This document shows positions 1,891 to 28,269 of a DNA stretch of 28,293 nucleotides, piece after piece. The notes under the pieces were generated by a model, which was not told where the DNA came from, did no database searches, and saw only the letters and a list, made by a program, of their open reading frames with translations. This stretch comes from a virus: the IMG/VR virus record IMGVR_UViG_3300010160_000175, positions 1-28,293 of that record. One strand, given 5' to 3'. Position 1 is the first letter of the stretch. Every line of letters begins with the position of its first letter. The position numbers were made by a program, and so were the translations under genes.

Positions 1891-3333
1891 ATGCCAAGAG
1901 AAACTTTAATACAAGTACGAAGTGACACCTCCTCTAACTGGACCTCAGTAAACCCTATTCTTGCCACTGGTGAGATAGGGTTTGAGAGCAATACTGGTAA
2001 ATTCAAAATAGGTATTGGGTCTACCGCTTGGTCTAGCCTTCCCTATGCTAGTGGTACATCAACAACAAGTGCAACTGACTTAACTTCAGGCACTCTAAAT
2101 AACGCCCGACTTCCAGCATACGCAACGACCATTACTACCGTTGGTACTTTGGGTTCTTTGGAAGTTACTGGCAACTTAACCGTAGATACCAATACTTTGT
2201 TCGTTGATGCGCCTACAAACCGTGTTGGTATTGGTACAGATACTCCTGGGACTGCATTGGATGTTGTTGGGTCTATACAGGCAAGTTCAGATTTAAATAT
2301 TGAGGGTAATGTTGTTCTAGGTGCCAGTAATGGAGTCTTTTATAATGAGACCAATAGAAAAGTTGGTATTTTAAATCAAGCGCCTCAATATACGCTTGAT
2401 GTTTTTCACTCAGAAAGCAATGGTTGGGGTGCTATGCGTGTTCTTAACGCTGGCAATGGTTACTCTTTTCTAGTTGAAGATGCAGTAGGTGGTGACACCA
2501 CACCATTTGTAATTGCTAATGACGGTAAGACTGGTATTGGTACGGCGTCACCAACAACAGCACTTCAAGTGGTCGGAACTGTTACTGCTACAGCATTTGC
2601 TGGGTCAGGAGCGTCGGTCACATCAATTCCCGCCGCAAACTTAACTGGGACTACCTTGCCCGCTGCAATTACTGCTTCTTCACTTACCTCTGTAGGTACT
2701 TTAGGTACATTATCAGTGAGTGGTTCTATTACAGGTTATGGTGGTTTCTATAAGTTTGGAACATATCCTGGCGATTTAAGCATTTATCTTGGAACTGACA
2801 CGATTTACGGCAATGTTAACATTCAGTACAACTCAACAACAAAACTGACGGTTGGGTCAAATGGTATTACGGTCACAGGTACAGCATCAGCAACTGGAGC
2901 AATTACAGGATCAGATTTTCTAGTTAGCACTAAGTCTATGCCTCGTGGTTTAATGGCTACGCCTGCTACATCAACTACTTCCGATACATCAATCACGGCT
3001 GAAGAAGTCCAACTCACCTACACTTTCACCGCTGTCAGCGGTAGAACTTATCTGTTGGTGTATCACGAGCCTGCCATATTTGGAAGCACGGGAACGACTG
3101 TAACTGCGAGACTTCGTGAAACAAACATTTCAGGAACAAACCTCAACACAGGTCAATCGGTTGTTCCAACAGCGACATTTGCGACTGTCAGATGTGAAGT
3201 TGTTTATACTGCTTCAGCGTCAGGTTCTCTCACCATCGTTGCTACTTTACAGTTTGCGGCAGGTACAGGACAGACGGCACGCTCGGCAACAAAGTTTCCG
3301 CAACTCTACGCACTTGATGTCGGCGTCGTTTAG
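1891..3333 (+). CDS. Tail fibre protein with Mtd_N-like N-terminus
   Basis: A 480-aa fibre protein. Residues 1-55 match the N-terminal domain of major tropism determinant-like proteins: LIQVRSDTSSNWTSVNP, LATGEIGFES, then GKFKIGIGSTAWSSLPY. That domain normally attaches the fibre to the tail. The middle carries repeated fibre motifs of the form VGIGT-TPGTALDVVG (near residues 111-127 and again near 215-230). Residues 352-480 are the second copy of the C-terminal module found in the upstream fibre. The start has only a weak purine stretch (GAAAG at 1877-1881). No C-type lectin fold typical of Mtd itself is visible, so only the attachment domain is shared. Confidence 0.8.
   Translation: MPRETLIQVRSDTSSNWTSVNPILATGEIGFESNTGKFKIGIGSTAWSSLPYASGTSTTSATDLTSGTLNNARLPAYATTITTVGTLGSLEVTGNLTVDTNTLFVDAPTNRVGIGTDTPGTALDVVGSIQASSDLNIEGNVVLGASNGVFYNETNRKVGILNQAPQYTLDVFHSESNGWGAMRVLNAGNGYSFLVEDAVGGDTTPFVIANDGKTGIGTASPTTALQVVGTVTATAFAGSGASVTSIPAANLTGTTLPAAITASSLTSVGTLGTLSVSGSITGYGGFYKFGTYPGDLSIYLGTDTIYGNVNIQYNSTTKLTVGSNGITVTGTASATGAITGSDFLVSTKSMPRGLMATPATSTTSDTSITAEEVQLTYTFTAVSGRTYLLVYHEPAIFGSTGTTVTARLRETNISGTNLNTGQSVVPTATFATVRCEVVYTASASGSLTIVATLQFAAGTGQTARSATKFPQLYALDVGVV
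2944..3330 (+). repeat. Shared fibre C-terminal module, copy 2
   Basis: Codes for residues 352-480 of the Mtd_N-type fibre. It is homologous to copy 1 at 1470-1868, with the best matches at both ends and most divergence in the middle (copy 1 near residues 305-350), where exposed loops might contact the receptor. The two proteins have unrelated N-terminal parts, so the module has been joined to two different stalks. Confidence 0.8.
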
Positions 3334-3516: not shown

Positions 3517-3716
3517 TTGTTCACATGTACCTTACCAAACAAAATAAAGCTTTAATTGCATCATACGCGCGTAGCGTATTAGGAGCCGCAGTTGCTACCT
3601 ACACAGCCACACAGGACTGGAAACTAACTTTAAATGCCCTCTGGGCTGCGGCTTTGCCCGTTGCCATTCGTTTCCTTAACCCAAATGACAGTGCTTTTGG
3701 TAAGGGTGAAAAATGA
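3513..3716 (+). CDS. Holin-like small membrane protein
   Basis: A 67-aa protein. The central part (ALIASYARSVLGAAVATYT, then LNALWAAALPVAIRFL) gives one or two hydrophobic helices, followed by a polar tail ending GKGEK. It lies directly before an M15 endolysin and overlaps it by ATGA (3713-3716), the usual holin-lysin arrangement, so it probably forms the membrane lesion that releases the enzyme. Start choice: GTG 3513 lies 5 nt after GGAGG (3505 region) and overlaps the previous stop; ATG 3525 is an alternative giving 63 aa. The function is inferred from size, hydrophobicity and position. Confidence 0.6.
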   Translation: MIVHMYLTKQNKALIASYARSVLGAAVATYTATQDWKLTLNALWAAALPVAIRFLNPNDSAFGKGEK

Positions 3717-4252
3717 TTTATCCATTTATTAAACTTGAAGTACCTCTTGCTTTAAAACGCTTTAAGAACGGTCAATTGCCAGATAATGTGTTAGCACCAG
3801 TTGCTACTGGAGGTAAAATGTACTATGAAGCAGCAAAACACTTTAATGCTTTGTACACTGCAGCTTTAACTGCAGGGTTTAAATTAAGGAATGTTGGTGA
3901 CTATCGCTCATTTGAAAGCCAGTTGGCAATGTTTAGAGACCGTTATGTTCTTGAAAACACTGGAACAGGAGTAACTCGTACCTTTGAGGGTAAGACCTGG
4001 TACCTCAAGAAAGGCAAAGCCCCATCGGCAGCGCCAGACCCAACTGGATTGAAGGGCTCAAATCATGGTTGGGGACTCGCAATTGACCTTGGCTATGAAA
4101 AAAATGGAAAGCTTACATCTATGGGTGGAAAATGCTTAGAATGGATGTGCACAAACGCCCCCAAGTATGGTTTCTATCTTCAGAGTTCTGACCCAAAGTC
4201 CAAAGAGTTTGAAGCATGGCATTGGCAGTACGCCTTGGGTGATAAGGGGTAA
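3713..4252 (+). CDS. Endolysin, M15 family D-Ala-D-Ala carboxypeptidase-like
   Basis: A 179-aa single-domain enzyme of the M15 (VanY/LAS) metallopeptidase type, which cleaves peptide bonds in peptidoglycan stems or cross-links. Visible motifs are GDYRSFESQ (62-70), the zinc-binding SNHGWGLAID (116-125, with H118 and D125) and EAWHWQ (167-172, with catalytic E167 and zinc ligand H170). There is no signal peptide and no obvious separate wall-binding domain, so export should depend on the holin-like protein upstream. Length and motifs are those of a complete small M15 endolysin. A second, divergent M15 domain is embedded in the tape measure protein. Confidence 0.88.
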   Translation: MIYPFIKLEVPLALKRFKNGQLPDNVLAPVATGGKMYYEAAKHFNALYTAALTAGFKLRNVGDYRSFESQLAMFRDRYVLENTGTGVTRTFEGKTWYLKKGKAPSAAPDPTGLKGSNHGWGLAIDLGYEKNGKLTSMGGKCLEWMCTNAPKYGFYLQSSDPKSKEFEAWHWQYALGDKG

Positions 4253-4256
4253 CTAA

Positions 4257-5177
4257 ATGGCTGTTAAAATTCAATTAAGGCGTGGTACTACCTCCGACTG
4301 GTCTTCAGCAAACCCTGTTTTATCTGCTGGTGAGGTTGGTGTAAACACAACTACTACTCAAATCAAAGTTGGGGATGGCACCAGCACATGGAACTCACTA
4401 TCTTATTTTGCCTCAGGTACTATTACCTCAATAGTACCTGGTACTGGCATTAAACTTAATGGTGCTAGTTCAACTATTACTGGTGGTGCTGCTACCGTAG
4501 CTATAGACACAGCAGTGGTAATGCAAAGATCAATTGTAAGTGCTCTAGGACAAGTAGTAGTTGGTGGCGGTGCTAGTTCACCTGTTGCACTACCAGCTGG
4601 CACAAATAACTATGTATTAGTTGCTGACTCTACTAATGCAACTTACGGAGTTAAATGGGCCCCTGTTGACACTACCCTTGTTACAAGTGCTACATTTGGT
4701 AATGCGGACATTGCTACTGATGCAGGCATTGTTGATACTAAGTTGGCAACGATTAGTACTACTGGAAAAGTTTCTAACTCTGCTACTACTGCATCTGCTT
4801 CAGCTGGAAACAATACAATTGTTTCTCGTGATGGAACAGGAAACTTTGCTGCTGGGACCATTACTGCATCTTTAAATGGTGTGGCTTCAGGCAACTTGGT
4901 TTCTGGCGGTGCGCTTGGCACTCCTGCAAGTGGTACTCTAACTAACTGTACAATACCATCATTGTCTGGTGACGTTACTTCTAGTGGTAACGTTGTAAAC
5001 ATTGCTGCTGGGGTTATTCTTGATGCAGAAATAAACGCTAGTGCTGCGATTGCTGCATCAAAACTTTTAGGTGTTCAGTTGTCTCAATCAGGTATCAACA
5101 ACTCTACGACTTTCAGCACTATTACTCCTACTACTCAAGGCAATAATGGCGATATTTGGTTTAAGTACGTAGCATGA
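4257..5177 (+). CDS. Second Mtd_N-type tail fibre protein
   Basis: A 306-aa protein. Its first 50 residues (IQLRRGTTSDWSSANP, LSAGEVGVN, IKVGDGTSTWNSL) are an Mtd_N-like attachment domain clearly related to that of the fibre at 1891. The body has stock fibre phrases such as NTIVSRDGTGNFAAGTITA and GTPASGTLTNCT, and a KLATISTTGKV segment, all common in phage fibre shafts. It lacks the C-terminal module seen in the two upstream fibres and ends in GDIWFKYVA. It overlaps the next gene by ATGA. It probably forms a shaft or adaptor on which the following protein is mounted. Confidence 0.78.
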   Translation: MAVKIQLRRGTTSDWSSANPVLSAGEVGVNTTTTQIKVGDGTSTWNSLSYFASGTITSIVPGTGIKLNGASSTITGGAATVAIDTAVVMQRSIVSALGQVVVGGGASSPVALPAGTNNYVLVADSTNATYGVKWAPVDTTLVTSATFGNADIATDAGIVDTKLATISTTGKVSNSATTASASAGNNTIVSRDGTGNFAAGTITASLNGVASGNLVSGGALGTPASGTLTNCTIPSLSGDVTSSGNVVNIAAGVILDAEINASAAIAASKLLGVQLSQSGINNSTTFSTITPTTQGNNGDIWFKYVA

Positions 5178-10033: not shown

Positions 10034-10309
10034 ATGCCTGATTCCTCAAGTCTGGTTGCAGACTTAACGGAGCGACAAGCGAATGCACTTCGTCAAAAGT
10101 GCTCGTTTACACGCATAAAAGAAAGCATGTCCTCAGAAGAGCATTCAGCAGTAAACAAGGCTGAGGAAGAGATTAAGGCCGATACTGGGAATGGTAGAGC
10201 AAAAACCTACTCCTGTACTTGGTTATCTGAAGTATTGACAAAAAATGGTTATTCAGTAAGTTCTAGCACCATATCCCGCCATATGAACAAGCGGTGTGGC
10301 TGTGAGTAA
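10034..10309 (+). CDS. Small helix-turn-helix DNA-binding protein
   Basis: A 91-aa protein. Residues about 60-87 read as an HTH: TWLSEVLTKNGYSVSSSTISRHM, with the recognition helix in SSSTISRHM, followed by a Cys-containing end (KRCGCE). Similar short HTH proteins are common in actinophage-like genomes as regulators or as small terminase-like DNA binders. A good leader (AAGGAG, 10022-10027) precedes ATG 10034. It overlaps the phosphoesterase start by 14 nt. It might control late genes or serve as the missing small terminase; the sequence does not decide between these. Confidence 0.7.
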   Translation: MPDSSSLVADLTERQANALRQKCSFTRIKESMSSEEHSAVNKAEEEIKADTGNGRAKTYSCTWLSEVLTKNGYSVSSSTISRHMNKRCGCE

Positions 10310-11282
10310 TCTTATGTCTGCTTTAACTTCCAAGCCTGAATGGCCATTAGTACAACCTGGTCCATCAATAAAGATGCCTACAATTAAAGTTAAGCCTTCA
10401 TCAAATGCCCCAGGTTATCAAACTTGCGTAATCCTCCCAGATATGCAGATTGGGTATTTCCGGGCACGTAACGGTGAATTAGAGGCCACTCATGATGAAG
10501 CAGCGATTGCCATGGCATTAGCAATAACCAAATCTCTAAATCCAGACATGGTTGTGCTTGTTGGAGACAACCTAGATTTCCCTGAATTTGGTAAATACCG
10601 ACTTAGTAGTGCTTATGCATTGACTACCCAAGCATCAATTGACCGTGCTACAACCCTCGGAGCACAACTGCGAACTTATGCTCCTAACGCTAAACTTGTA
10701 TGGATAGCCGGGAATCATGAAGAAAGATTGGTGAACTTTGTACTCGATAATGCAAAAGCTGCCTTCGGCATTCGTCAAGGTAATACTCCGGAATCCTGGC
10801 CTGTTCTTAGTATTCCTTCTCTCTGTCGCTTCGATGATTATGGGATACAGTATATACCGGGCTATCCAGCTGGACAATTTTGGATCAACGAAAGACTCCG
10901 CATCATCCACGGCACAAAAGTACGCAGTAACGGGTCGACAGCGCATGCCTACCTCAACACAGAAAAAACCTCAGTCATATACGGACACATTCACCGACGT
11001 GAATGGGCCGAACGATCACGAGACGATTGGGATGGCGCAAAAACCATCATGGCCGCATCCCCTGGTACGTTGGCAAGATGCGACGGAGCCGTTCCGTCTA
11101 CCAAAGGATCAATAGATTTAGATGGTAGACCAATGACTATTGTAGAAGATTGGCAACAGGGAATTGGGATAGTTACCTTTGAACCAGGTGATGGTGCATT
11201 TTGGTATGAACAAGTGCCGTTTCATAACGGATCGGCCTTTTTTAGAGGGAAGTTTTATAATGAAGAAAAAGCAACAAACTGA
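10296..11282 (+). CDS. Calcineurin-like metallophosphoesterase
   Basis: A 328-aa protein with the full order of two-metal phosphoesterase motifs: DMQ (49-51, where the family usually has DxH), VGDNLD (89-94), GNHEE (139-143), HG (205-206) and GHIH (230-233). Such enzymes hydrolyse phosphodiesters or phosphomonoesters, in phages often nucleic acid or nucleotide substrates. The Gln in the first motif may alter metal use but is seen in some relatives. The annotated start is GTG 10296, with GTG 10302 and ATG 10314 as alternatives; none has a clear Shine-Dalgarno. Position between TerL and portal suggests a packaging-linked or DNA-end function, which is inference. Confidence 0.85.
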   Translation: MAVSNLMSALTSKPEWPLVQPGPSIKMPTIKVKPSSNAPGYQTCVILPDMQIGYFRARNGELEATHDEAAIAMALAITKSLNPDMVVLVGDNLDFPEFGKYRLSSAYALTTQASIDRATTLGAQLRTYAPNAKLVWIAGNHEERLVNFVLDNAKAAFGIRQGNTPESWPVLSIPSLCRFDDYGIQYIPGYPAGQFWINERLRIIHGTKVRSNGSTAHAYLNTEKTSVIYGHIHRREWAERSRDDWDGAKTIMAASPGTLARCDGAVPSTKGSIDLDGRPMTIVEDWQQGIGIVTFEPGDGAFWYEQVPFHNGSAFFRGKFYNEEKATN

Positions 11283-19798: not shown

Positions 19799-21346
19799 AT
19801 GCCCACTTACCAAAACCCTGGTGTGTACGTAACAGAATCAGCTTTTGTCTCAAAGCCAAAGCAATCTAATGCGGCACGTTCAAGCGCTGCTTTTTTTGGA
19901 GAAGCCGCACGAGGACCTTCTACCGCTACTTTAATTAGCTCTTGGTCTGAGTATCGCACACTTTATGGAGAATTAAACCAATCCTATGATCTTGGATTTG
20001 CTGTTTATCATTACTTTTCAAATGGTGGTAAAGATGCATACATTACAAGAATCACTTCTAGTACAGCTGCTGCAGCTACTGTAACCGCAACCTATAGCCC
20101 TAACATTGGTGGGAGTGCTTCAGCTGTTGCTACGTTATTTACAGCTTCTGCAATAAGCAAGGGAACTTGGGGTAATGGTCTTACTTTGGAGTTTACTGCT
20201 GGAAATACCAAAGCTACTTCTACAGTAATGCCTTCCTTTAACCTAACGGTTAAACTTGATGGTATTGAAGTTGAACGTTGGAATGACCTTTCTCCAAATT
20301 CTGCAGATAACCGTTATCTTGTAACTATTTTGAATACGTATTCTATGTATATTAATAATGTTGTTATTGGTAACCCAGCACCTGTTGCAACTATTTCAAG
20401 TGGTACTAGCTCGGCATTTGCTTATAAAACTACTGCTACTTCGTTTAGTGGTGGAGTTGCTGGGTCAGCAGTACAGGCTTCAGACTATGTTGACGCTTTA
20501 CCAAAGCTTGATGCAGTTGAAGGTGTGTTACTCCTTAATGCTGTAAATAAGTCGGAATCAACAATCATTAACCCTTTTATTGCTAAGGCAGAAAGTCGTG
20601 GTGATAGTTTTGTTATTATTGACCCGTCAATGTCTGAAGTTGTCGTTGCAACCATTGGTGCCTCTATTGTTGGAGCATACTCAGTTTCAAACTATGCTGC
20701 TGTGTACTACCCACATTTGTTAATGCTTGATCCTTCAAAGACAGGTCCAGGAGCAGTAAAAGCAACTGCACCTGGTGGTGCTATAGCTGGCGCCTTTGTT
20801 AGAACCGAAATTGAAAGAGGTATTGCTAAAACACCAGCAGGTTTTAACGTAGGAATTAAAAATGCAATTGGTCTTGGAACACCTTTTACTGCAACTGAAA
20901 CTGGTACGTTGTACGGATCATATAACATAAACACTTTAAAGGCAATTCCTGGTGGTGGAATAGTTGTTAATGGCGGACGCACTCTAGATAAAAACGCTCC
21001 AGGCAAGTTTATATCTGCACGTCGTACTTTGAACTACTTGAAGCAAGCTCTTAAAGATGCAACAGCTTACGCTGTATTTGAGCCTAACGATGAAAGATTG
21101 TGGAGCCAGCTTTCAATTGGTGTTTCATCTATGCTTGCTGAGTTTTGGCGCCAAGGTAATCTAAAGGGATCAACTCCAGCTGACGCATTTTATGTTAATT
21201 GTAGTTCATCAAACAACTCGGCAATCAGTGTAGACAATGGAGAAGTAAAAATTGAAGTTGGTGTTGCTCTGCAGTACCCAGCTGAATTTATAGTAATTAA
21301 CCTGTCCCAATGGACCGGTGGTTCAAACGCAATCGAAACTATCTAA
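19799..21346 (+). CDS. Contractile tail sheath protein
   Basis: A 515-aa protein of the phage sheath family. It opens with PGVYVTE (7-13), the family's signature start, followed by AFFGEAARGP and FAVYHYFSNGGKDAYITRI. The centre has extra beta-rich insertions (about 90-220). The C-terminal half carries the conserved sheath core (DAVEGVLLLNAVNKS; YPHLLMLDPSK; RTLNYLKQALKDATAYAVFEPN; VALQYPAEFIVINLSQW). It polymerises around the tube and contracts to drive it through the envelope. Its presence shows the phage has a myovirus morphology. A strong Shine-Dalgarno (GAGGAG, 19787 region) precedes ATG 19799. Confidence 0.95.
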   Translation: MPTYQNPGVYVTESAFVSKPKQSNAARSSAAFFGEAARGPSTATLISSWSEYRTLYGELNQSYDLGFAVYHYFSNGGKDAYITRITSSTAAAATVTATYSPNIGGSASAVATLFTASAISKGTWGNGLTLEFTAGNTKATSTVMPSFNLTVKLDGIEVERWNDLSPNSADNRYLVTILNTYSMYINNVVIGNPAPVATISSGTSSAFAYKTTATSFSGGVAGSAVQASDYVDALPKLDAVEGVLLLNAVNKSESTIINPFIAKAESRGDSFVIIDPSMSEVVVATIGASIVGAYSVSNYAAVYYPHLLMLDPSKTGPGAVKATAPGGAIAGAFVRTEIERGIAKTPAGFNVGIKNAIGLGTPFTATETGTLYGSYNINTLKAIPGGGIVVNGGRTLDKNAPGKFISARRTLNYLKQALKDATAYAVFEPNDERLWSQLSIGVSSMLAEFWRQGNLKGSTPADAFYVNCSSSNNSAISVDNGEVKIEVGVALQYPAEFIVINLSQWTGGSNAIETI

Positions 21347-21361
21347 CAAGGAGAATATACA

Positions 21362-21988
21362 ATGGCACGTTCAGCTGCTACAGATCCAGTACGTAACTTT
21401 AAATTTCAAGTAACTATAGTACCAACTGCTGGTACCCAGTTAGCAGCAACCCTCGCTGGTATCGGTGATTTGGGGTTTGCTGCTATGACTGGTGTTTCAG
21501 TACAACACCAAATGGTAGGTTACCGTGAAGGTGGAATGAATACTCATACCCATAAGCTAGTCGGCCAGTCTGACTTTGGCCCCATTACTTTTAGTCGTGG
21601 TGTTATTGCAGAACAAAGTCATTTATGGAAATGGTCTGAATTCCTACATTCATGGAATACTGCTACAGTTGGTGGTGCAGGTGGTGGTTCAAACTCTAAT
21701 GTTGCCAATGGTAATGATTACCGTTGTAATATTCTTGTCAAAGTGTTTGACCACCCTCACTCAGTAGGTACTTATCAAGAATCAGGAACAGTTAGTAGTG
21801 CGGCCAATAGTCTTGGTAAAGTTCGCTTAGCTATTAAAATGTTTGATTGCTGGCCTGGTGCTTTTCAACTAAGTGACCTTTCAGCAGGAGACTCTGGTAT
21901 TATTGTGCAACAACTTACGGTACACCATGAAGGATTTAAACTAGCATGGAATGCAACTGACATTGACGCGCTAACACAAGTAAACTAA
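21362..21988 (+). CDS. Tail tube protein (T4 gp19-like)
   Basis: A 208-aa protein following the sheath, as is standard for contractile tails. It opens with PVRNFKFQVTI, then the conserved VSVQHQMVGYREGGMNTHTHKLVGQSDFGPITFSRGVI (positions about 47-82), with the KLVGQSDFGPITFSRG strand pair typical of gp19 and Hcp-like tube subunits, and ends with DSGIIVQQLTVHHEGFKL. Hexameric rings stack to make the inner tube. A strong ACAAGGAGAATATACA leader precedes ATG 21362. Confidence 0.9.
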   Translation: MARSAATDPVRNFKFQVTIVPTAGTQLAATLAGIGDLGFAAMTGVSVQHQMVGYREGGMNTHTHKLVGQSDFGPITFSRGVIAEQSHLWKWSEFLHSWNTATVGGAGGGSNSNVANGNDYRCNILVKVFDHPHSVGTYQESGTVSSAANSLGKVRLAIKMFDCWPGAFQLSDLSAGDSGIIVQQLTVHHEGFKLAWNATDIDALTQVN

Positions 21989-22002: not shown

Positions 22003-22026
22003 GAGTAATACAATGAGTAATACAAT
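22003..22026 (+). repeat. 12-bp tandem duplication across a start codon
   Basis: GAGTAATACAAT occurs twice in tandem (22003-22014 and 22015-22026). The first copy gives the end of the Shine-Dalgarno and the start of the ATG (22013); the second encodes residues 2-5. It is a probable slippage duplication in frame. Confidence 0.8.
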
Positions 22027-22807
22027 TGAAACTGAGTCTATGGACGAAATGTTCAAAGACCCAGCCCCTGTTATTGCCAACCCCGAATCAGTTATTGTTG
22101 AATTACAAAGAGGATTACTCAATCCTGCAACTGGTCAATGGCAAACTACGGCTGAAGTTAGAGAACTAAATGGCAAGGATGAAGAATTCTTAGCATCATT
22201 AGAAGGTAATAAAAACATTACGTATGCAATGTACGTTGGAACTATAGTAAGTCGTGCAACGGTTAGAATTGGTGACACTCTTATTAGGAACAATAAAAGT
22301 GTCATTGATGAGTTAATTACTGGTGATAGAGATACTTTGCTAGTTGCTATTCTTAGAGCTACTTACGGGCCGGAGCGTACTTTTAAATACCCTTGTGAAG
22401 CTTGTAAGACATCAAATGATGTAACTATCAATATTGAAGAAGACTTCCCAATTCAAACTACAACATTCAACCTTCGTGAACCATTTGACGTCACCCTTAA
22501 AAAAGGAGAAGTGCTTAAGTTTAAGCTTCCAGTAGGCTCAGATAATATTGCTATGTCAAAAGGTGAAAGTATTGCTCAACAGAGCACTTTGTTAATTAGT
22601 CGTTGTGTGGTTTGGAAAGACCACAAGGATAGCTTGTACAGTGAGGAGTGGGCTAAGAATCTTGGTCTGCAAGATCGCAATACCATTCTTTCTGCTATTC
22701 TAGGGCCAAAAGTAGGCCCCAAGCTTGGGGAGGTGAATACCCAGTGCGCTACTTGTAGCGCTGACATTGTAATAAATGTAGACTGGGTATCCCTTTTACT
22801 TGCCTGA
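22013..22807 (+). CDS. Zn-ribbon tail assembly chaperone / T4 baseplate-like protein
   Basis: A 264-aa protein with four Cys in two CxxC pairs (C128-C131, CEAC; C245-C248, CATC), a zinc ribbon interrupted by a 110-residue domain. The N-terminal region (VIVELQRGLLNP; AEVRELNGKDEEFL; VGTIVSRATVRIGD) and the RDTLLVAILRATYGPE segment resemble the T4_baseplate-type family and tail assembly chaperones. It lies between tube and tape measure genes, the chaperone's usual place. Ribosomes can read on into a second frame near the stop (see the entry at 22800), giving a longer form of about 313 aa. Confidence 0.7.
   Translation: MSNTIETESMDEMFKDPAPVIANPESVIVELQRGLLNPATGQWQTTAEVRELNGKDEEFLASLEGNKNITYAMYVGTIVSRATVRIGDTLIRNNKSVIDELITGDRDTLLVAILRATYGPERTFKYPCEACKTSNDVTINIEEDFPIQTTTFNLREPFDVTLKKGEVLKFKLPVGSDNIAMSKGESIAQQSTLLISRCVVWKDHKDSLYSEEWAKNLGLQDRNTILSAILGPKVGPKLGEVNTQCATCSADIVINVDWVSLLLA
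22790..22807 (+). other. Candidate programmed frameshift region
   Basis: In the zero frame the codons are TCC CTT TTA CTT GCC TGA. A +1 shift on CTT-T (the kind of slip used in bacterial release factor 2) or on TCC-C, or a -2 shift, would pass into the frame that stays open to 22955. The alternative frame is open only from 22782 to 22955, so any shift must happen in 22782-22807. Confidence 0.5.
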
Positions 22808-22955
22808 CTTAAAAGGTATATACTGGGAGTACGAAGGCGTAGCTACTGTTTACAAAGGGTTTAGTTTAGATGATATACGGGGCATGACTATACGTCAAAG
22901 AGACTTTTGGTTCCGTATGGCTAAATGGAGAATATCCGATGGAAGCAGTAGCTAA
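22800..22955 (+). CDS. Frameshift C-terminal extension of the chaperone
   Basis: In the +1 frame the DNA is open from 22782 to TAA 22953-22955. The encoded peptide (PDLKGIYWEYEGVATVYKG; FSLDDIRGMTIRQRDFWFRM; AKWRISDGSSS) is rich in aromatic and basic residues and looks like protein, not random sequence. There is no ribosome site and no ATG near its start; the only nearby starts are TTG 22800 and a late ATG. The stop shares a base with the tape measure start (TAATG), as at other real junctions here. The most likely reading is a gpG-gpGT type product made by frameshifting; independent initiation at TTG is less likely. Confidence 0.6.
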   Translation: MPDLKGIYWEYEGVATVYKGFSLDDIRGMTIRQRDFWFRMAKWRISDGSSS

Positions 22956-25900
22956 TGACCGAAGATGAAATTAACAAATCAGTTTCCAAAGAAGCAGGAG
23001 GCATGGTCTCTGCTTCTGTTGGCATTAACGCTGATACTGCATCTCTTAAAAGCCTTAAAGATGGTATAAAGGCAATTAAAACCGAAACTAAAGAATTGGT
23101 TAAGGTTTTAACAGAAGCTAGAAATGTCCTTAAAGAGATGTACGATAAGTACGGTCTTACTGCTTCTTACCAAGTACACCAAGCTGGTGCTGAGGGTGCG
23201 CAATACTCCACTGATGCAAGTGGTTCTACCACACAAGCAGCTGGGACCAAAACTGTAGGAACTCAACCTGGTAAGTCTCCAAACGTTCAACCTGCCCCAG
23301 ATTCAGTATCGGCTGCTTTGTCAGGACAAAATGCTTTAACTCAAGGTCAGGGTGGGGGTGGTTGGGCCCAAAGAATGTTTCAGGGTACCACTAGTGCTCC
23401 AAACTTTCAAGGTGTTGCTGGTAAATTTGGTGGTGGGGGTTCTGGTGCTATAGGGGTAGGCCAACAGATAGGAGCAATGTTTTCGAGTGCTGGTAACTTT
23501 ACAAGCATGGCTGGTACCTTGGCTAAAACAGCTGTACAGGCTATTGACAACCGTGTAGAGGCCGGAAGAGATTACGCACTTAATGCGGATAGATCTACGC
23601 TTCAGATGCAACAGTTGACAGGCATGAGCCAGGGTCAAGTAATGAACAACCTTAGAATGCCTTTAACTGACTATAAGCTTGGTACTAATGGCATTAACCA
23701 ATTGATGTCACTACAGGCCCGTACAGGCATCAATGCGGCCCAACAAGCATCAAGTGTCGAAATGATGAGAACTATTAGTGGTTTCTCTATGGGTGCTGAA
23801 GGTGCATCCAGTATCATTGAAAATCTTGCTGCTCCAGAAACAGTAAACAAGATGTTTATGATGACCGGTACAAGCCTTATTGGTCCTGGTGGTCAACAAA
23901 ACAGTACTAAAGACATAATACAAACTCTTGCTAGAAAAGCTGGGTTAGACAATGCAGCTCTTGCAAAGACTGCATCAGCTCCAGGTTCTGTTACTAGGGC
24001 AACGCTTTCGTCTATGGGTGTATCCGGAGACTTGCAAGATCAAGTTATTCAGTATGCTCAATCTAATGTAGCTTTTAAGGCTAAGGGTGGAAAAGGATCG
24101 TACGATCCAACCAAAGAGGCTGATCGTAAACGTATGGGTATTGATGATACTTTTGCTATGGAAGCAGAAGAAACTGAACGTAAACGAGGTAAAAGAGACG
24201 AGCAGTTCTATCGAGACCAAGCTGTTTCTTACGCTAAATTAGAGCGCCAAACACAACGGGTAACTGACGCACTAGGAAAAATGGAACACGCTCTTAAAGG
24301 GATTATTGGTGAAAGAACTAGTAACCGAATTGGTCAGAAAATACTAGGTGGAGTAATGGGCGCAGTGGGTGCAGGTTTAGTGGCATCTGGCTTTGGAGCA
24401 CCAGTTGGTTTTGGATTAATGGCTGGAGGAATGGCATTAGCAGGTGACCCTGTTCTAGATGAATCAAAAGCTTTTGCTCAAAAAACTGGATTCTATGGTT
24501 TTACCAACACAAATGCACCATCAATACCCCGTGCCATAAGAGCTGCTCCAGTAACCACTTCTACTTCTCCAACTGATGTCTCAACTGATACATATGCACC
24601 ACAAACTACAGATTTTCAATTTCCTGAAGGTTTTAGTCCTGATGCAATGTCGGGGTATTTAGTTGATAAGCGTACAGTAGGGGGCGGTGGTAAAGAAGTT
24701 AAAATGGCCTTTACAAACAAATTTGCAAGTGAAAACCTAAACCCAGCACTTAGAACTTCTGTAGAAAACATGGCAACAAAAGCTCAAGAAGAAGCTGGCA
24801 TAGACTTGCGAATGAGCCCAGGTGGTGGTCGTAGAGACTTTTATGAACAAACTAAATTATTCTTTAGTCGATATACCCCCGCTGCAAGCAACCAAAGAAC
24901 TTTTGTTGATGCGTACGATGGCGCAACACGTGCTGTAGTTCCTTTCAATGGTAAAAACTATATGAAAAAACCACAAAACAGGGAACCTCCTGCAGCTGCT
25001 CCGGGTGACTCACTCCATGAAATTGGTATGGCTGCTGACTTAGACCTATCTGATCCAAAAACAAAAGCATGGGTTAAAGCAAACTTATGGAGATTTGGTT
25101 TAGCATCAGGTGATGGAGAAGATTACCACGTCCAACTTGGTTGGACTAAAAACATGGGTGTAAAGAAGTTTTTAGGAGAAACTGCTTTAACGTTTGACCA
25201 GGCTTCAAAAAATGCTAGACAAGGTGGTGTAACTTGGGCACAAAATATAAACCCTGGATTTGGTGTTGACACCAGTGTGTTTTCAGAGAAACTTTTAAAA
25301 AGACTTGGAACAACGGTTACTGTAGAAAAATTACAGTGGCTTAGAGCATGGACACAAAAAGAGGGTGGGGGTGGTATGTATAACCCCTTTAACGTAGTCT
25401 CCGGAAGTAACAGAAGAACTGTTGATGGTAGAGACAGAACTGAAACTAACTATAACCAAAATGGGAACTATCCTGTTCAAAACTTTGGTAGCCTTGAAGA
25501 AGGTATTAACTTCACTTTATACCATTTGTTAAACCATCAAAAAGGTCTTATGAAAGTTATGATGCAGCCAAATCCATCTATTGAAGATTTTAAATCGGTT
25601 GCCAGTAAAAGCACGGCATCAGGAAGTAAAGGTTTAATGAATAATATTGATAGTGTTGTTAAACGCTACAATAAAGCAGTAGCTGATAAAGATTACGCTG
25701 GTATAGAACGAAACTATGGTAGTACCGGATTAGCAGCTATTGGATATGCTGGAGACCCACAACCATCGGTATCTCCAATGACGGTATCTCCAATGTTTAT
25801 TCCAAACACTTCTATGTCTTTATCTAGTATGGGAATGTCCGGCGGAAATACTGTTAATGAGGGAAGCACCATAACAATTTCACCAGTTATAAATATGACT

Positions 25901-26011
25901 TCATCTGGAGCAAATGGTTCAGTTAGTGAGTATGACCTAAGATCAATGGCTAAACGAATAGCTAAATTAATTGAACAAGAAACTAACATTAATAAAATTA
26001 GGAGTACGTAG
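22955..26011 (+). CDS. Tape measure protein with M15 peptidase and lysozyme-like domains
   Basis: A 1018-aa protein. Residues 25-65 are a coiled coil, 70-200 a Gly/Gln/Ser-rich stretch, 200-450 mostly helical, and about 462-498 a hydrophobic Gly-rich segment (GGVMGAVGAGLVASGF) as expected for a membrane-interacting part of a tape measure. Residues about 590-735 are an M15 peptidase domain with SLHEIGMAADLD (H688, D695) and EDYHVQ (E722, H725). Residues about 785-865 resemble a phage lysozyme/glucosaminidase-like domain (WLRAWTQKEGG with E803; MYNPFNVV; YPVQNFGSLEEGINFTLYHLL). It sets tail length and probably opens the wall during injection. Start ATG 22955 shares a base with the previous stop. 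Confidence 0.8.
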   Translation: MTEDEINKSVSKEAGGMVSASVGINADTASLKSLKDGIKAIKTETKELVKVLTEARNVLKEMYDKYGLTASYQVHQAGAEGAQYSTDASGSTTQAAGTKTVGTQPGKSPNVQPAPDSVSAALSGQNALTQGQGGGGWAQRMFQGTTSAPNFQGVAGKFGGGGSGAIGVGQQIGAMFSSAGNFTSMAGTLAKTAVQAIDNRVEAGRDYALNADRSTLQMQQLTGMSQGQVMNNLRMPLTDYKLGTNGINQLMSLQARTGINAAQQASSVEMMRTISGFSMGAEGASSIIENLAAPETVNKMFMMTGTSLIGPGGQQNSTKDIIQTLARKAGLDNAALAKTASAPGSVTRATLSSMGVSGDLQDQVIQYAQSNVAFKAKGGKGSYDPTKEADRKRMGIDDTFAMEAEETERKRGKRDEQFYRDQAVSYAKLERQTQRVTDALGKMEHALKGIIGERTSNRIGQKILGGVMGAVGAGLVASGFGAPVGFGLMAGGMALAGDPVLDESKAFAQKTGFYGFTNTNAPSIPRAIRAAPVTTSTSPTDVSTDTYAPQTTDFQFPEGFSPDAMSGYLVDKRTVGGGGKEVKMAFTNKFASENLNPALRTSVENMATKAQEEAGIDLRMSPGGGRRDFYEQTKLFFSRYTPAASNQRTFVDAYDGATRAVVPFNGKNYMKKPQNREPPAAAPGDSLHEIGMAADLDLSDPKTKAWVKANLWRFGLASGDGEDYHVQLGWTKNMGVKKFLGETALTFDQASKNARQGGVTWAQNINPGFGVDTSVFSEKLLKRLGTTVTVEKLQWLRAWTQKEGGGGMYNPFNVVSGSNRRTVDGRDRTETNYNQNGNYPVQNFGSLEEGINFTLYHLLNHQKGLMKVMMQPNPSIEDFKSVASKSTASGSKGLMNNIDSVVKRYNKAVADKDYAGIERNYGSTGLAAIGYAGDPQPSVSPMTVSPMFIPNTSMSLSSMGMSGGNTVNEGSTITISPVINMTSSGANGSVSEYDLRSMAKRIAKLIEQETNINKIRST

Positions 26012-28269
26012 TGGCTAATTATAAAGACTATGATGACCTATACGATTTCCTTAACGGTACAGCTCCAGGTGCTTCACGTGGTAGTAGTGAAATTATGGAT
26101 GTGTTCAATGACACATTTGCATTTAATCCAAGCACTGTACGTACCGGTAAAGTCCTTGCTAACGGATCTTTTGACACAAATGCTACAACAAAACTAACTC
26201 GTGGGTTTATAAGAAACCTTATGGTTGATTTAGGTGACGGTCAAGTACAGATGCCAAATATAAGATGTAGATTTCAATTTAATCCACAAGACATTGAGCA
26301 CTCACTTGAAGCACGTAGGGACATGTATTTACCCATTCTTCAAGATCCCCAACAACTAAGACAACCTATGGCAGGCAATGCAGCTTTTGCTTTTGAATTA
26401 ATATTTGACAGAACTATGGAAGTTAACAGTAAAGTGTCAAAGTCCTCTGTAGCGGGTGTTGACGACGAATCTCCTGGTGAAGAAACACCAGATGAAACTA
26501 GCGCAGAAACTGTTGGCGTATTTCATGATTTAAGAATACTGTATTCTATAATTGGTACAGGGTTAAGTAAAGAGTTATTAGACGCACAAATGAAAAAAGC
26601 TAGATTAGATATCTTATCTTATGCACAACGTAATTACTCTGAATTAAACATTCAAAGAAATAGTGATGGCAACTTTGTGGCCGTTGGAAACACTGATGAA
26701 ACTGGTGTTGAGGGTACTGTAGACCAAAACTCACAAGAGTTAGTAAACTTTTTAAGTCAATTAAATGACCCATTAAGTGATGCTTCTGGGAATCTAAGTT
26801 TTATGTCTAATTTAAATATTGGAAACTCTGCATTTTTAACACCACAACCATGCAGAGTTATTTTTTCTCCTATGTTTATGGTTGATGGTTTTGTAATGAA
26901 TACTAGAGTTTTATTTACAAAATTTAGTGCAAAAATGATACCCATACAATGTAAAGTATTTTTACAAATGCAAGCAGTTTATATTGGTTTTGCAAAAAAA
27001 CAAACATTCCTGACTGCCCAGTATGAAGAGCAAGCAGAAATAAACACCGGAGCTCAACAAAATGCAAATCAGGCCGTTGTAGATATTTGTAAAATTCTAC
27101 AAACTAATATGAGAGCAATAGGGGTTGGTTATAGTAGTGATACTAGAATACTTGGTAATTCCACTGAGGCAACAAACACTACAGACCACGTGTATTCTGT
27201 TAGTTACAATAAAGAGGGAAGCAATGAAGCAGCTTCTGGTTTAGTTTATCAACCAATTTGGCTTTATGGAACTAAAAACTTTTGGTATAGAAGAGGTTTT
27301 TCTACTAATCCAAGTCTTTCAAAGAGTAATAACTTAACTAGCTACAACTCTGATTATTACCTAAATTATAACACTCCTATAAACACTCCTAACTTTATGC
27401 CCGGAATAACAGTAGCGCTTGTTAACGGTACTAAAGAAAAAGATGAAATAGCTAAGAAAGTATTTGAAGATTATAAAGATTCAGGTCCTCTCCTTAGGAT
27501 AAATATAACATCAAGAATATACGGGCCTTTTGGTAGCCAAGTGTTAGGAAATGCTTTTGTAGCTACCAAACTTGGAACAGAAGCTAAGTCTTACCCAAGT
27601 TCTAGTGAGTATCCTACAGGTGTAAAACTTTTAGGTGATTATAATGTTGGAATAGAGATAAGAGATAAAGCAACCTGGGAAAAATATGCTGATCGTTCAC
27701 ATGATTTTCTATTAAGTTCTAGATCTCCTAGTGAAAATCTATATAATGACTCCAACCAAGCTGCTAATCCAATAACTCCAAGCACAGATAATAGTTCATT
27801 TGTTAGTGTACTTAACAATTTGGACGATAAAATTACTACTTATACTAATTCCTTAAGTCCTCATACTTCAACACAAAAAGCTAATGCTAAAAAAGTACTA
27901 CAAGATATATACAAAAGTTCAAATAGAATTGGAGCAGAAAATACTGACCCAAAAATAGATGGACAACTTGATACATTGCTCCCGTTGTTTCCGGGAGCGT
28001 ACTATAGCAACATTCCTGATTCTCTACTAGAATTAGTAAATGAGGTGCACGGTTTAAACTCATTATATTTTGTTGTAGTTACTGAAACTAGTTTAAAAAT
28101 GACAATATCAGCTGTGGCTAACGCTGGAACTCAACCATTTGCAATAGTGTCTGAAAGATCTACGGATGTAATTCAGGGGTCAACAGTAGGGCACAAAGTA
28201 AGTCTGATTCAACGGTACGAAAACATCCCACCTGCTCCAAGTTACTGGCTAGTAGGAGATACGCAATGA
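26011..28269 (+). CDS. Baseplate / CIS tube-like structural protein (752 aa)
   Basis: The start is GTG 26011, sharing one base with the tape measure stop. Residues about 80-140 show the pattern of contractile injection system tube-associated proteins: RCRFQFNPQDIEHSLEARRD (N91-P92), then FAFELIFDRTMEV (F132-D133). The remainder is long, Asn/Ser/Thr-rich and beta-rich, with no LysM or lysozyme motif that I can recognise. Position after the tape measure suggests a baseplate or hub component joining the tube to the wall-contacting parts. It overlaps the next gene by ATGA. Confidence 0.6.
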   Translation: MANYKDYDDLYDFLNGTAPGASRGSSEIMDVFNDTFAFNPSTVRTGKVLANGSFDTNATTKLTRGFIRNLMVDLGDGQVQMPNIRCRFQFNPQDIEHSLEARRDMYLPILQDPQQLRQPMAGNAAFAFELIFDRTMEVNSKVSKSSVAGVDDESPGEETPDETSAETVGVFHDLRILYSIIGTGLSKELLDAQMKKARLDILSYAQRNYSELNIQRNSDGNFVAVGNTDETGVEGTVDQNSQELVNFLSQLNDPLSDASGNLSFMSNLNIGNSAFLTPQPCRVIFSPMFMVDGFVMNTRVLFTKFSAKMIPIQCKVFLQMQAVYIGFAKKQTFLTAQYEEQAEINTGAQQNANQAVVDICKILQTNMRAIGVGYSSDTRILGNSTEATNTTDHVYSVSYNKEGSNEAASGLVYQPIWLYGTKNFWYRRGFSTNPSLSKSNNLTSYNSDYYLNYNTPINTPNFMPGITVALVNGTKEKDEIAKKVFEDYKDSGPLLRINITSRIYGPFGSQVLGNAFVATKLGTEAKSYPSSSEYPTGVKLLGDYNVGIEIRDKATWEKYADRSHDFLLSSRSPSENLYNDSNQAANPITPSTDNSSFVSVLNNLDDKITTYTNSLSPHTSTQKANAKKVLQDIYKSSNRIGAENTDPKIDGQLDTLLPLFPGAYYSNIPDSLLELVNEVHGLNSLYFVVVTETSLKMTISAVANAGTQPFAIVSERSTDVIQGSTVGHKVSLIQRYENIPPAPSYWLVGDTQ

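Follow-up and report, generated by a model that had tools for sequence, protein, structure and literature searches.

A 2017 review counted no more than five virion lysins that combine two different lytic domains, and all of these came from phages of Gram-positive hosts (PMC5380687). Earlier peptidase–glycosidase pairs are found in CwlP from SP-beta and in a handful of staphylococcal virion lysins (PMC5380687), and such pairs in one tape measure were previously known from few phages of Gram-positive hosts. CwlP (YomI), from the SP-beta prophage of Bacillus subtilis, is a large tail protein, probably a tape measure, combining a lysozyme-type domain with an M23-type D,D-endopeptidase (PMC5380687). 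Among actinophages, the tape measure of mycobacteriophage TM4 bears a peptidoglycan hydrolase motif that helps the phage to inject its DNA into stationary cells (PMC1796659). The diffocin tape measure extends along the inside of the tube, its C-terminus resting on the spike, and presumably refolds once ejected, while the diffocin hub combines a transglycosylase and an endopeptidase (PMC11329794).

Here, we compare with these systems a virus contig of 28,293 bases (the window; G+C content 41%), whose plus-strand ORF 22955-26011 encodes a protein of 1018 amino acids. Being long, conserved at the C-terminus and encoded after the genes for the tail sheath (19799-21346; phrog_23, E=4e-48) and the tail tube (21362-21988; phrog_4542), this protein is predicted to be the tape measure of a contractile-tailed phage. 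A T4_baseplate-family gene (22013-22807) lies just before it, and the match of the 1018-aa protein to the tape measure family phrog_16823 falls on the M15 region described below. We propose, with a probability of about 0.78, that the tape measure doubles as a two-enzyme virion-associated lysin.

The nearest cultured kin are Streptomyces phages, with GiJojo being the closest (45% identity for the terminase and 35% for the sheath), and the gene order is the same as in GiJojo. The same genome position is occupied there by gp84 (L053:21701-24871; phrog_329; 1056 aa), annotated as a hypothetical protein, which appears from its position and domains to be a tape measure. It carries a peptidase followed by a glycosidase ahead of the C-terminus, the order also predicted for the window protein, but its modules are an NlpC/P60 domain (E=4e-21) and a transglycosylase. 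The window phage probably infects an actinobacterium, since WhiB genes are present in seven out of 12 related records (contigs of up to 94 kb); of 14 control genomes, only Corynebacterium was positive. That 41% G+C would suit a low-G+C aquatic actinobacterium is only a guess. Right behind the tape measure gene, 26011-28269 encodes a protein of 752 aa with a weak CIS_tube match and no confident family, probably a hub or baseplate protein; a calcineurin-like metallophosphoesterase gene (10296-11282) lies between the terminase and portal genes.

The features of the tape measure, with domain identities and boundaries established computationally, and the separate endolysin of the phage are as follows.

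22955..26011, + strand: predicted tape measure protein, 1018 aa (ORF; phrog_16823; position that of GiJojo gp84)
23402..24424, + strand: conserved tape measure body, residues 150-490 (identity 65-87% with close relatives, 46% with L028)
24725..25159, + strand: M15 (VanY-type) zinc peptidase domain, residues 591-735 (PF02557, VanYB profile, fold)
25010..25039, + strand: M15 zinc motif S-x-H-x-x-G-x-A-x-D, residues 686-695, with H688 and D695 (in 27/27 tape measures)
25118..25129, + strand: M15 motif E-x-x-H, with E722 and H725 (invariant)
25256..25684, + strand: second domain with a GH73-like predicted lysozyme-superfamily fold, residues 768-910 (fold match; purifying selection)
25361..25363, + strand: E803, predicted general acid (invariant in 15/15 aligned domain sequences)
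25442..25444, + strand: E830, predicted second catalytic carboxylate, counterpart of FlgJ E223 (sole other invariant acid)
25880..26008, + strand: C-terminal segment, residues 976-1018, which, judging by the diffocin tape measure (PMC11329794), probably anchors the protein at the tail tip (identity 67-91% in close relatives)
3713..4252, + strand: separate M15 endolysin, 179 aa (PF02557, E=8.6e-17; clade apart from the tape measure M15)

The preliminary description had assigned to positions 24722-25560 an M15 peptidase and a lysozyme/glucosaminidase-like domain. This stretch indeed corresponds to residues 590-869 of the ORF, with H688, D695, E722, H725, and E803 as named there, and the M15 assignment is borne out. 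PF02557 matches residues 594-700 with 25.5 bits for the whole protein (E=1.3e-5) and 27.9 bits for the segment, the curated cut-off being 25 bits. A chance origin of this match is ruled out by the profile constructed from 13 relatives, which matches VanYB structures from PDB at E=7e-8 along with other VanY and LdcB structures, and by the predicted M15 fold (Ply500, Z 10.3; LysB4, Z 10.2; VanYB, Z 8.6; VanXYc and ChiX also matched). The zinc ligands H, D, H and the catalytic E are all present: SLHEIGMAAD holds H688 and D695 and, together with E722-x-x-H725, is invariant in relatives. The loss of catalytic residues, proposed as a possible refutation, was looked for, and the motif is retained by all 27 tape measures compared below; one relative, L022, split into two frames within the M15 region, was set aside as a likely assembly error. 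Taken together, the profile, the fold, and the invariant zinc motif make residues 591-735 a well-supported VanY-type M15 peptidase.

The profile matches include VanY and LdcB carboxypeptidases, and the domain might thus not open the wall as an endopeptidase but act as a trimming D,D- or L,D-carboxypeptidase or as an assembly protease. This seems unlikely, as two phage endolysins, Ply500 and LysB4, give the top fold matches, and the phage sequences closest to the tape measure M15 belong to the lysin A proteins encoded by Microbacterium phages; besides, trimming by carboxypeptidases would leave a cross-linked wall closed. The window domain shares the fold (Z 10) and the zinc ligands with Ply500 and LysB4, but these two are free endolysins, whereas the window M15 sits within a tape measure.

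The phage has a free M15 protein as well, the endolysin encoded at 3713-4252, with an equivalent in all 11 related virus records. On the tree, the endolysin and tape measure M15 domains form two distinct clades (support 100/99, in 100% of bootstrap trees), and therefore a recent origin of the tape measure M15 as a copy of the phage's own endolysin is ruled out. The endolysin gene is flanked by two tail-tip genes, 1891-3333 and 4257-5177, each starting with an Mtd_N domain; a diversity-generating retroelement behind them is unlikely, as a search of 12 related records revealed no reverse transcriptase.

The second domain is conserved, does hold E803, and is longer than initially described (about residues 768-910). 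Searched singly or as a profile, it had zero matches in Pfam, PHROGs, NCBIfam, and PDB sequences. In particular, PF01832 (GH73, Glucosaminidase) did not match any of the 12 second-domain members or anything elsewhere in the related records, and the SLT lytic transglycosylase family PF01464 did not match the second domain. HHalign yielded 0.3% against SLT domains of sister phages and a non-significant 1% probability, with the aligned stretch in the expected register, against a self-collected set of 13 GH73 sequences. No relatives outside the phage's own group turned up in 50,697 phage records or, in a weak scan with two short patterns only, in 84,980 genomes.

The alignment of 15 copies of the second domain (identity down to 29%) has 17 invariant columns, including E803, Y809, N810, P811, N813, R828, E830, and G850, with E803 and E830 being the only invariant acids. 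The second glutamate lies 27-31 residues past the first one, and the spacing of the glutamate, N-x-F, and the second glutamate is similar to that in GH73. FlgJ has a helix glutamate, E184, and a hairpin glutamate, E223, and the E223 to Q mutant keeps residual activity (PMC4752226). The second domain likewise has an invariant helix glutamate, E803, and a second glutamate, E830, matching E184 and E223, respectively; in many GH73 members, the second one is located on a hairpin. The C-terminal motif YATDP, which we take to be common in GH73 (12 out of the 13 collected sequences have a motif of the type YAT plus D/S/A-P), is absent from the aligned copies.

Two AlphaFold models had mean pLDDT of 71 and 73, with the confidence being lowest in the loop/hairpin region that would hold E830. 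In the first model, the best matches of the second domain were all GH73, namely, FlgJ 5dn4 (Z 6.8), 5dn5 (5.9), and T. maritima 4qdn (5.9), with further GH73 matches to Sphingomonas FlgJ (5.4), Auto (5.1), and AtlA (4.9). Over both models, Z was 5.6-5.9 for 4qdn, 5.4 for 3k3t, 4.9-5.1 for Auto, 4.9-5.2 for AtlA, and 4.6 for phi29 gp13. The GH73 matches, with Z about 5 to 7 and low pLDDT in the hairpin region, are middling, and Foldseek alone gave no significant match for the second-domain model.

As Z 5 to 7 could arise by chance and Foldseek alone was negative, one may suppose that the second domain has nothing to do with wall cutting and is simply a globular portion of the tape measure, comparable to those reported as predictions for diffocin and R-pyocin tape measures, its resemblance to lysozyme being a coincidence among small helical domains. 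We regard this as highly improbable, given that each of the top eight matches to the model of the domain alone is a GH73 enzyme, an autolysin glucosaminidase, or a phage tail lysozyme, and that SLT domains replace the second domain positionally in homologous proteins.

Returning to the lysozyme-superfamily reading, the second domain resembles the GH73 glucosaminidases (FlgJ, Auto, AtlA, TM0633) in its predicted lysozyme-like fold and shares with them the helix glutamate, N-x-F, and the second glutamate, but differs from them in having no significant sequence similarity and no YATDP. Because of the latter two features, we describe the predicted fold as GH73-like without assigning the domain to GH73 itself. 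Accordingly, the lysozyme/glucosaminidase-like label of the preliminary description agrees with the predicted fold, the two invariant glutamates, and SLT in the same slot, and disagrees with every sequence profile and with the absence of YATDP; the profile search suggested there for both segments placed M15 (PF02557, VanYB) but put the second segment in no family, while the suggested structure prediction matched the M15 fold and found GH73 to be nearest to the second domain within the lysozyme superfamily.

A search with the conserved tape measure body allowed us to reach a sister group with other C-terminal halves. Among 27 non-redundant tape measures spanning both slots, including that of the window, the full M15 zinc motif is universal, whereas the second slot is occupied by the GH73-like domain with both glutamates (16/27), by SLT of two subtypes (10/27), or by an unplaced domain (1/27, L096). 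None of the 27 has a lone module, that is, either M15 or the second domain only. SLT or SLT_3 scored above the Pfam cut-off in L092, L094, L099, and L103, and HHalign relates both SLT subtypes to each other (97%). Thus, M15 is the constant module in this lineage, and the second module is exchangeable. This SLT/GH73-like replacement, in which one glycan-cutting enzyme would take the place of another in the same slot, is the best evidence for glycan cutting by the second domain. The domain is likely a glycosidase, and it may, less firmly, be a glucosaminidase specifically. For RcZahn, a Rhodobacter phage with a Gram-negative host, M15 is the only lytic domain recognised in the tape measure.

Both the M15 and the second domain are under purifying selection, with dN/dS about 0.03-0.24, the values for the linker joining the domains to the body being 0.15-0.6. 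This low dN/dS also speaks against the idea that the second domain, though descended from a lysozyme fold, binds peptidoglycan without cutting it, leaving M15 as the sole enzyme. The absence of any profile match and of the GH73 motif YATDP would be consistent with it; however, the two glutamates are invariant while the rest of the domain drifts to about 30% identity, and SLT enzymes occupy the same slot in sister phages, so we consider binding without cutting rather improbable.

If the second domain is indeed a glycosidase, the two-enzyme tape measure could act as follows; the activity, the bonds, the timing, and the host are what we infer here. By analogy with the diffocin and TM4 tape measures, the protein would be extended inside the tail tube, the conserved C-terminus being positioned at the tip and both lytic domains close to it. 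Upon contraction of the sheath and arrival of the tube at the wall, the C-terminal part would exit first, and both lytic domains would fold once outside the tube. The M15 zinc domain would then cleave a bond in the stem peptide, most likely acting as an endopeptidase, and the GH73-like domain would cleave the glycan strand, with E803 as the general acid and E830 as the second carboxylate. Cutting both types of bonds may produce a local hole in the thick, cross-linked actinobacterial wall, through which the tube and DNA would pass.

The preliminary description considered a peptidase–glycosidase pair to be less common than a single domain, and it is correct in that the pair is uncommon yet not unknown, being preceded by the cases listed above. 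E830 as a second invariant glutamate, the separate M15 endolysin at 3713-4252, and the swapping of the second slot in relatives come in addition to that description. As in CwlP, a peptidase is combined with a glycosidase, here a predicted one, and the host is probably Gram-positive too, but in the window protein M15 comes first, followed by the uncatalogued GH73-like domain, and the phage is contractile-tailed. TM4 likewise has an actinophage tape measure with a peptidoglycan hydrolase, but with a single motif from another family (mt3) and a non-contractile tail. Hence, the strategy of a two-lysin tape measure is already known, while the combination of M15 with a GH73-like domain is probably new, and the glycosidase family is probably uncatalogued. 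The presence of a second module beside M15 in 27 out of 27 homologous tape measures (unassigned in one) suggests that cutting both types of bonds is required or strongly favoured for entry via the actinobacterial wall, and the lineage offers a natural module-swap set for testing what each cut contributes.

The segments of the tape measure seem to have separate histories, which points to exchange between phages, since the synonymous difference per site varies between segments within a pair. For L027 and L026, it is 0.23 in the body and 0.65 in M15 and the second domain; for L004 and L018, it is 0.27 in the body and 0.08 in the second domain. The second domain is a candidate lysin family missed by present databases. 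The chances seem roughly even for a broader proposal, by which it founds a lysozyme-superfamily glycosidase family missing from current libraries, and the tape measures of the lineage carry an obligate two-slot lysin cassette with a fixed peptidase and a glycan-cutting slot exchanged as a unit between phages.

The unplaced domain of L096:4344-7304 (around ALLQNETGGKYN...WGGFNIS) adds a third type of occupant to the glycosidase slot and is unmatched in Pfam and PHROG.
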